From the NCBI GenBank assembly GCA_020343655.1, contig CP070805.1:1640280-1690018 (forward strand): a stretch of DNA of 49,739 nucleotides, in the 5' to 3' direction. The stretch is from Promethearchaeota archaeon. GTDB taxonomy: Archaea; Asgardarchaeota; Lokiarchaeia; Sigyniarchaeales; SOKP01. A model generated the notes under the pieces. That model was not told where the DNA came from, searched no databases, and saw nothing but the letters and a program-made list of their open reading frames with translations. Positions 26,026-29,235 of the stretch are shown here, piece by piece (the first letter of the stretch is position 1; every line of letters starts with the position of its first letter). The position numbers and the translations under genes are program-made.

Positions 26026-26213
26026 AGTTTAAAATAATTTGTATTACTTATGATGTTTATTTTTTTTATATAAAAAAATTGGAGTCCAATATTTTAATTA
26101 TAAAAATCTTGTAAATAAAAAGAGTTTAATTCTAAGATTATTTCTTAAAAAAATAACTTTCATATCACCTACGTATTATTCATATTCATTGGTTGCTGAG
26201 AAAATTCCTAAAT

Positions 26214-26243
26214 TTTTATATAATTGCTAAATATATTATTTAG
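26214..26243 (+). promoter_or_regulatory. promoter with a 17-bp palindrome before the wHTH/NrdD-like gene
   Basis: A TATA-like TTTTTATATAATT is followed directly by CTAAATATATTATTTAG (26227-26243), a perfect inverted repeat of CTAAATA and TATTTAG around TAT. It lies 41 bases before the TTG start of a gene whose product begins with a winged helix. The position between TATA box and start suits repression. The AT-rich composition raises the chance of accidental palindromes. Confidence 0.45.
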
Positions 26244-26284: not shown

Positions 26285-28270
26285 TTGGATGCCGACAAAA
26301 ACCAAAATATTTTGGAAAAACAACTCAAGACTTTAGGTCAGAAGATTAGAATTGATATTTTGAAAAAGTTAAAAAAAACTCAAATCCCATTATCTTTTTC
26401 AAAGCTTCAAAAAGAAGTTTTAGAAAATGATTCTTCTTCAGGAAACTTATCTTTCCATTTAAATATATTAAAAAAGAGTGGGTTAGTCAGATCCTCAGAA
26501 GAAGGGTATTCAATTACATATCTAGGCGAACAAATAATAGACAAGATCTTATCTATTGAACAAATTTTAAATAAGCAAAAAAAGTCAAGGATGATCCGAA
26601 CCTCAAAATATTCTAAGGAACTATTTGATATTAATAAAATAGAGGAATATTTAGTGATAGAGGGGGAATTGGAACGTCATTTAGCTAAACAGATTGCTCA
26701 TGAAGTAGAAGAGCGTCTTTCTAAGACACATATAGAGTATATGACTGCTCCATTAATGCGGGAATATATTAATGCTGTTTTATTAGAAAATGGTTTAGAA
26801 GAAGTGCGACATAAATTGACTCGATTAGGAACTCCTCCATTTGAAGTGTTTCAAATTTTTAATTCCAAGAACGGTGAGATTACACCTGAAATCTTTATTA
26901 AAAGATTAGGTTCTGATGTATCTGAGCAGTTTTTACTTTTAAACCTTTTACCAAAAAATCTTGCTGATTTATATTTATCTGGAGAAATTGCTCTATTACA
27001 TTTGAATTATTGGAGTTTAAGACCATTAAGTTTGTATATAAACACGAAGTCGTTGATTGATCATATTTTCAAAAAACATTCAGACATTCCCCAATTAATT
27101 AAAAATGCTACAGATTTTTCTGATTTAATTATTCATTTTTTAGATCTTTTATACGAATTAAGCCAATTTTATTCTGAAGACATACTTTTGGGAGATTTTA
27201 ATACTCAATTTCTCTCTTTTTTTCAATTACCCAAAATAAAATCATTCAATTTCAATCTATTGACTTCTAAAATTTTTTGGCTAAATTCTCTTTTCAAAGA
27301 TGGTAAATCACATTTTTCATTGGAGTTTAGTTATAATGAAGGATTAATCAAAGAATGTTCAATTCAAACCCAAATTGATAAAAGTTTTATTAATTCTTTG
27401 AATATGCAAAGTAGAGGACGCATAAAACCATTACTTTTTTTTGAGATACCATCGCCTTTTTCATCAGAATTAGAGTTTTGTATATTAAAAAATTATATAT
27501 CTGATTCTAATAAAAATAATCTAATATTATATGATAAGAATTATTCAAATTTATTGAATTCAACAATAGTTCAAATTTCAAATCCTAATGAGGATATAAT
27601 TATTTTAGATAAGATTCTTACCAATTTACATATGATATCAGTAGAAGCAAAGCAAAATGATGATTTCTTTTTAGATCTATTGCAAGATAAATTAAATTCC
27701 ATATTTGAATTGTTTAAATATAAAGAGAGATTAGTACAGAAAAAATTAAATTCACTAAAACAATGGAATTTTGTAGTTACTAGGATTCTAAATAAAAATA
27801 CAGAAGAATTTTTCAAAAAATCTTTAAAATCTATTAGTTTTTTCGGTTTAAATGAAGCTATTTTAAATCACTGTGGAATCGAACTTGATAGAACAGAAAA
27901 AAGTGAAGTTTTTGCACTAAAAATCCTATCATTAATGAAAAAAATTATTGAGGAAAGAAATGAAGTTGATAACAATAATTTCATATTATCTCAGCCTCAT
28001 TATGGTTCTTATCTAATAGATTCTTTTCATAATGGGATGGCACAGTATAATCAAAAAGTAAATGGATATACCTCAAGAATGATTAGAACTGAATCAAATC
28101 TCTCTCTTGATAAAAGAATCAAATTGTTTAAAAAATTTCAGAAATTTATCAATGGAGGAACTTTATTTATAGAAAAAATTAATACAGATGAATTATCCTC
28201 AGAAATTCTTTTGAAAACTCTATTTGAATCAAAAATTGGTGCGATTTCTTTAAAGGATTGCGTATTCTAA
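26285..28270 (+). CDS. winged-helix / ATP-cone / NrdD-like fusion lacking the glycyl-radical region
   Basis: A 661-residue protein from TTG 26285. Residues 10-90 form an ArsR-type winged helix (LGQKIRIDILKKL, then NLSFHLNILKKSGLV). Residues 103-183 are an ATP-cone (RMIRTSKYSKELFDINKI to VRHKLTRLG). The remainder follows class III ribonucleotide reductase: LPKNLADLYLSGEI, FGLNEAILNHCGIEL (near 520) and FINGGTLF (near 623). The protein ends about 35 residues after GGT, before the zinc site and the glycyl-radical loop of NrdD. It is thus unlikely to reduce ribonucleotides, and probably senses nucleotides and controls transcription. A palindrome lies in its promoter. Confidence 0.8.
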   Translation: MDADKNQNILEKQLKTLGQKIRIDILKKLKKTQIPLSFSKLQKEVLENDSSSGNLSFHLNILKKSGLVRSSEEGYSITYLGEQIIDKILSIEQILNKQKKSRMIRTSKYSKELFDINKIEEYLVIEGELERHLAKQIAHEVEERLSKTHIEYMTAPLMREYINAVLLENGLEEVRHKLTRLGTPPFEVFQIFNSKNGEITPEIFIKRLGSDVSEQFLLLNLLPKNLADLYLSGEIALLHLNYWSLRPLSLYINTKSLIDHIFKKHSDIPQLIKNATDFSDLIIHFLDLLYELSQFYSEDILLGDFNTQFLSFFQLPKIKSFNFNLLTSKIFWLNSLFKDGKSHFSLEFSYNEGLIKECSIQTQIDKSFINSLNMQSRGRIKPLLFFEIPSPFSSELEFCILKNYISDSNKNNLILYDKNYSNLLNSTIVQISNPNEDIIILDKILTNLHMISVEAKQNDDFFLDLLQDKLNSIFELFKYKERLVQKKLNSLKQWNFVVTRILNKNTEEFFKKSLKSISFFGLNEAILNHCGIELDRTEKSEVFALKILSLMKKIIEERNEVDNNNFILSQPHYGSYLIDSFHNGMAQYNQKVNGYTSRMIRTESNLSLDKRIKLFKKFQKFINGGTLFIEKINTDELSSEILLKTLFESKIGAISLKDCVF

Positions 28271-28305: not shown

Positions 28306-29235
<930 letters not shown>

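Follow-up and report, generated by a model that had tools for sequence, protein, structure and literature searches.

In bacteria, the genes of ribonucleotide reductases (RNRs) are repressed by NrdR, in which a zinc ribbon is joined to an ATP-cone and which is rare in archaea (PMC9110341, PMC12176259). The window studied here, i.e. the whole 49.7 kb stretch of lokiarchaeal DNA that was analyzed, contains a gene for a protein consisting of a winged helix-turn-helix (HTH), an ATP-cone and an NrdD-like core (HTH-NrdD protein, Table 1). Like NrdR, it joins an ATP-cone to a DNA-binding domain and is expected to read ATP/dATP, and candidate sites lie before more than one RNR class and at its own gene. 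Unlike NrdR, it possesses a winged helix, no zinc ribbon (PF22811) and a whole dead RNR core, it is archaeal and occurs in genomes without detected NrdR, and its candidate site is a single asymmetric 9-mer instead of paired palindromic boxes.

ROK-family repressors carry a winged helix added to a sugar kinase. RokB is an example (PMC4856308). There, as proposed here, an enzyme fold became the sensor of a winged-helix regulator; enzyme and pathway are different, and the HTH-NrdD protein descends from the very enzyme in front of whose genes the candidate site lies. With the class III enzyme NrdD itself (PF13597/TIGR02487; P. copri NrdD, PMC11226230) the protein shares a clearly homologous core fold and ATP-cone, whereas it lacks the thiyl cysteine, the strand-1 cysteine and the glycyl-radical domain and has gained the winged helix. 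No described RNR-derived regulator was found in the open-access literature searched.

Domains, fold and integrity of the HTH-NrdD protein

Table 1 Features of the HTH-NrdD locus (positions in the window)
Feature	Position	Strand	Basis or remark
Conserved upstream element TATCACCTACGTATTAT	26163..26179	+	Upstream alignment
BRE/TATA-like block CCTAAATTTTTATATAA	26207..26223	+	Conserved in orthologues
HTH-ATP-cone-NrdD-like protein (HTH-NrdD protein), 661 aa, TTG start	26285..28270	+	ORF, orthologues, dN/dS
Candidate operator CCGACAAAA	26292-26300	+	Codons 3-5 of the HTH-NrdD gene; upstream alignment
Winged helix-turn-helix, residues 14-88, DUF7347/ArsR-like	26324..26548	+	Pfam, model
Predicted recognition helix, residues 55-64	26447-26476	+	Within the winged helix
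ATP-cone, residues 103-174, predicted ATP/dATP sensor	26591..26806	+	Pfam, alignment
Class III RNR core, residues 200-661	26882..28267	+	Pfam, alignment, structure matches
pyrB (aspartate carbamoyltransferase), convergent neighbour	28306..29235	-	35 bp downstream of the HTH-NrdD ORF

In Pfam searches the N-terminal domain matched DUF7347 above the cut-off (E 1.4e-12) and, weakly, HTH_20, HTH_5 and HTH_metalloreg; a winged helix with a recognition helix, as in ArsR-like regulators, is thus present. The ATP-cone match (E 7.5e-4) remained below the curated cut-off, and the best NRDD stretch (residues 447-629, E 8.8e-18) was above it; relatives from other phyla pass all three cut-offs. Cone residues kept both family-wide and in the active NrdD of the source genome are I119, P156 and G182 together with R105-T106, F114, R159-E160, R175 and T179-R180. 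Because the latter five blocks are common to the protein and its own NrdD, nucleotide binding by the cone appears likely.

An AF2 model based on an alignment that included NrdDs reached a mean pLDDT of 81, and a control model from an alignment without them reached 75. The top 35-36 PDB matches of both models were class III RNRs only (E 4e-17 and 1e-16), and the protein shares both core fold and sequence family with NrdD. Bias of the fold through NrdDs in the modelling alignment was considered and rejected, as the NrdD-free model gave identical top matches. Pfam, the AF2 models and the PDB matches thereby uphold the architecture of winged helix, ATP-cone and NrdD-like body given in the original prediction, which had also suggested the structural comparison with NrdD.

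The chain stops at the boundary between the RNR core and the zinc-glycyl-radical domain; the canonical NrdD of the source genome (L004:5902-8037, 711 aa) continues into CPSC...CPRC...RVTGYY. All Loki orthologues likewise lack the zinc site and the glycyl-radical loop, and they stop at the same place, with convergent pyrB next. A 3' frameshift concealing a glycyl-radical loop, which had been named as a possible refutation, is excluded because the orthologues end alike and pyrB follows after 35 bp on the other strand. A pseudogene is equally contradicted by these observations and by the dN/dS of 0.16-0.20 against three orthologues, a ratio that is approximate since dS is near saturation. In the same comparison the fewest amino-acid changes were found in the HTH and ATP-cone, so that the gene is under purifying selection, strongest in these two domains.

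Family distribution and loss of catalytic residues

In the same family group, each of the 24 other genomes searched had an orthologue (some partial at contig ends), and families of the order that are less closely related yielded further ones. When relatives were sought in 84,980 genomes with a profile of HTH and cone, 296 were confirmed; the best 80 of these 296 belong to Loki-, Hel-, Jord-, Sigyn-, Frey-, Baldr- and Bathyarchaeota, Culexmicrobium and one Thermoprotei MAG. A search for virus-encoded relatives found none. In a maximum-likelihood tree of 45 sequences, in which some branches are long and for which neither root nor inner order is claimed, the family forms one branch (100/100) apart from canonical NrdDs. 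The gene lies directly upstream of nrdD on the same strand in one bathyarchaeon and adjoins nrdD in Baldrarchaeum. Since a bathyarchaeal member (L206) just passes the NCBI NrdD model (326.4 vs a cut-off of 326.35), members are probably misnamed as NrdD, which flags this protein group as likely misannotated.

The strand-1 and thiyl cysteines (Cys171 and Cys416 in P. copri NrdD, PMC11226230) are replaced in the HTH-NrdD protein, with T and S at the thiyl and strand-1 positions, respectively, while Asn447 of the sixth barrel strand is kept. A position-by-position comparison of the best 80 of the 296 relatives revealed neither cysteine in any full-length member, and the Asn of the sixth strand was missing from a single one of these. 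The four zinc cysteines are retained in Sigyn-, Frey-, Culexmicrobium and Thermoprotei members, in most Jord- and bathyarchaeal ones and in one Hel member, and are gone from the Loki and Baldr members and the other Hel member examined. The radical glycine is kept only in Jord, Sigyn and Frey members and one Hel member.

Loss of the catalytic cysteines is common to the whole family while zinc site and glycine persist outside Loki, and thus the loss of the C-terminus is a late, lineage-specific step in the Loki line. The older loss of the two cysteines, and not the truncation, is the change that defines the family. The original prediction had correctly reported the missing zinc site and glycyl-radical loop, as comparison with canonical NrdD confirmed; loss of both radical cysteines is added here. 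Its emphasis on the truncation holds in part: the truncation is genuine and, in the proposed check of other Asgard genomes, all Loki orthologues were alike, but many non-Loki members keep the zinc site. Its other refuting case, homologues that all retain the loop, does not apply, since most homologues are without it.

The tree also contains two further sets of dead NrdDs, each of separate origin within the Loki NrdDs. A second dead paralogue without HTH (L005:5242-7041, at about 906.7-908.5 kb of the source genome G000, 599 aa) has neither the two catalytic cysteines nor the glycyl domain, is found genus-wide and falls inside Loki NrdD. In a family labelled f2 (L078, L080, L082), the radical glycine of a full-length NrdD is replaced, with KITDYY or KITNYY for RITGYY, and these genomes also have a class II RNR. 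The nrdD genes of L072, L073 and L074 and some long class II RNR frames encode 1187-1687 aa with in-frame insertions, which may be inteins; in L072 the insertion begins at the strand-1 catalytic cysteine (LRPFC|IDGS).

The B12-dependent class II RNR of the RTPR type is present in most relatives. It was not found in the source genome, where PF02867 (class I/II RNR) also gave no match. The NrdR zinc ribbon was undetected in 39/39 genomes of the order, in a search that was positive in 9 of 14 well-known genomes used as control.

A conserved word at the HTH-NrdD and RNR genes

A palindrome at 26227-26243 had been put forward as operator in the original prediction. Its left arm differs in almost every orthologue, and CCGACAAAA is the better candidate: in the upstream alignment of orthologues these nine bases are invariant at codons 3-5 of the HTH-NrdD gene. 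In the source genome, canonical nrdD also has this word, 86 bp ahead of its start (L004:5816-5824), with a nearly equal distance in relatives, and CCGAYAAAA is found 36 bp upstream of the B12-dependent class II RNR gene in nearly all genus members. CCGAYAAAA was present in 21 of 25 nrdD-side upstream regions (true nrdDs, an NrdD2 and three f2 NrdDs that lack the glycine), in 18/29 class II RNR regions and in 55/78 regions of HTH-NrdD genes; the initial 1.5 kb of each coding sequence, used as control, gave 0-2 matches per 37-113 kb. At nrdD, the word is kept amid unrelated flanking DNA in L077, L075 and L081. Position and orientation vary in some lineages: in L021/L022 the word precedes a later start codon, in L185-L191 it is reversed and about 119 bp upstream, and at some f2 class II RNR genes it is reverse-complemented at about -173 to -189.

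Codon 3 varies in meaning (S/A/P/T) and is yet always NCC in 51/51 orthologues with an in-frame word, while 13% of comparable codons in other parts of these genes end in C; codon 4 is always GAC in these 51, against 19% elsewhere. The orthologues are related and the counts therefore not independent, although the surrounding protein sequence varies widely between them. Because residue 3 changes while its codon ending and GAC stay fixed, it is the DNA and not the protein that is conserved here. Conservation of a start peptide (xxSDKN) was rejected on the same ground, the residue changing and the DNA word staying.

Genome-wide counts rest on pattern searches in two genomes only. The source genome shows no enrichment of the word, with 13 copies vs 16 of the reversed word in 2.27 Mb, and 10 of the 11 copies beyond those at nrdD and the HTH-NrdD gene are inside ORFs. 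The eleventh is intergenic, flanked by a ribbon-helix-helix (RHH) gene and an unknown gene. In another closed genome, copies of GCCGAYAAAA outside ORFs precede the class II RNR gene and the same RHH/unknown pair; one more copy (L247) is away from ORF starts and one is at the HTH-NrdD gene start. The intergenic copy beside the RHH gene (L046:1501 and L255:1501) is kept in two genus genomes, and the neighbour of the RHH gene encodes a protein of 216-242 aa without Pfam match. It is possible that this gene pair represents a further member of the regulon or a rival regulator.

Presence of the word follows the predicted recognition helix: it is mostly present with NLSFHL/ISYHL and mostly absent in lineages with GKFAYHL/GRFAYHL. 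In L083 and L084, the two genomes with canonical nrdD examined that have no HTH-NrdD gene, nrdD is without the word. G036, a genome 80% complete, has the word at nrdD, and no HTH-NrdD gene was detected.

The TATA-like box precedes the word by about 70-78 bp at the HTH-NrdD gene and at nrdD, which has a similar block, and by about 50 bp or more at class II RNR genes. About 110-125 bp before the HTH-NrdD gene, the element TATCACCTACGTATTAT is strongly conserved in the genus; it occurs nowhere else among the loci compared, and TATCACCYACATATTAT is likewise conserved only at the HTH-NrdD gene. In class II RNR promoters (upstream regions of L105-L118), a conserved stretch TATAGGACGGTTAAGGCA precedes the word.

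Proposed role and competing explanations

The HTH-NrdD protein is probably a nucleotide-sensing transcription regulator derived from RNR, acting on RNR genes and on itself in place of NrdR. We infer its DNA binding, its ligand and the sign of its control. A regulator derived from an enzyme, as foreseen in the original prediction, is what the domains, the lost catalysis and the conserved word argue for. In the proposed mechanism the protein, dimerized via its RNR core, would bind CCGACAAAA; the dATP/ATP state would be reported by the ATP-cone and perhaps by the dNTP specificity site of the core as well. Ample dNTPs would then lead to shutdown of nrdD, of the B12-dependent RNR gene where present, and of the HTH-NrdD gene. 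Repression seems likelier than activation because the word lies downstream of the TATA-like box (about 50-78 bp), a position from which a bound protein would obstruct RNA polymerase. The job of bacterial NrdR would thus be done in Lokiarchaea by the HTH-NrdD protein. A link between protein and word is suggested by the autogenous site, the recognition-helix pattern, the absence of the word in L083/L084 and the linkage to nrdD outside Loki. What counts against the proposed role is that CCGACAAAA is asymmetric and single, which is unusual for a dimeric winged helix, and that the protein itself matches the ATP-cone weakly.

Alternatively, CCGACAAAA could be the operator of another factor, e.g. the RHH protein, the HTH-NrdD protein being only a co-regulated member of the regulon. 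The RHH gene itself carries the word about 12 bp upstream, kept in two genus genomes, and G036 has the word without a detected HTH-NrdD gene; nevertheless we consider this explanation unlikely, since it is the HTH-NrdD protein that owns both a winged helix and an RNR-sensor domain, whose recognition helix is tracked by the word across families and whose gene is directly linked to nrdD outside Loki. It is less probable still that the dead NrdD acts mainly as a regulatory subunit paired with active NrdD, DNA binding being secondary. Persistence of L005, which is also truncated (599 aa) and has neither HTH nor catalytic cysteines, does demonstrate that dead NrdDs are retained for some reason, but the winged helix is kept throughout the family and changes slowest together with the cone, and pairing with NrdD leaves the common promoter word unexplained.

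An action of the word in RNA (5' leader or start region, e.g. in translation) rather than as DNA operator would fit the genus, where it is always on the sense strand and downstream of the presumed transcription start. The reversed copies in L185-L191 and at f2 class II RNR genes, together with the DNA-binding fold of the protein, make this a very improbable reading. The least probable explanation is that the protein controls pyrimidine synthesis and not RNR: pyrB adjoins the HTH-NrdD gene from Loki to Bathyarchaeia, and in Baldrarchaeum and the f2 family it is the gene immediately upstream, in the same direction, yet its orientation varies, the sole CCGACAAAA of the window is at the HTH-NrdD gene with none at pyrB, and RNR genes are what the word marks.

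If control of RNR genes by the HTH-NrdD protein is true, it would be a clear example of an enzyme that came to regulate the genes of its own family. Somewhat more guardedly, we think it rather likely that in several archaeal phyla RNR-derived transcription factors, which lost catalysis, kept allostery and gained a winged helix, repress class II and III genes via the nucleotides of the enzyme. Eukaryotes are thought to descend from the Asgard group of archaea, and for this group the analysis identifies a candidate protein, a candidate 9-bp site and candidate target genes, all of them testable with purified parts. In Jord-, Baldr- and Bathyarchaea, a word common to the HTH-NrdD gene and nrdD was sought and none convincing was found. 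Because no such word is seen in Jord- and Bathyarchaea, and an NrdR-like gene appears to lie before several bathyarchaeal nrdDs, the role of the members there may differ. In the bathyarchaea L217 and L218 the frame just before nrdD resembles the C-terminus of NrdR, so that NrdR and the HTH-NrdD protein may coexist in some bathyarchaea. Several relatives encode separate ATP-cone-like proteins of 146-187 aa that have no zinc ribbon (L103:1532-1990, L104:1316-1756 and L102:1435-1998).
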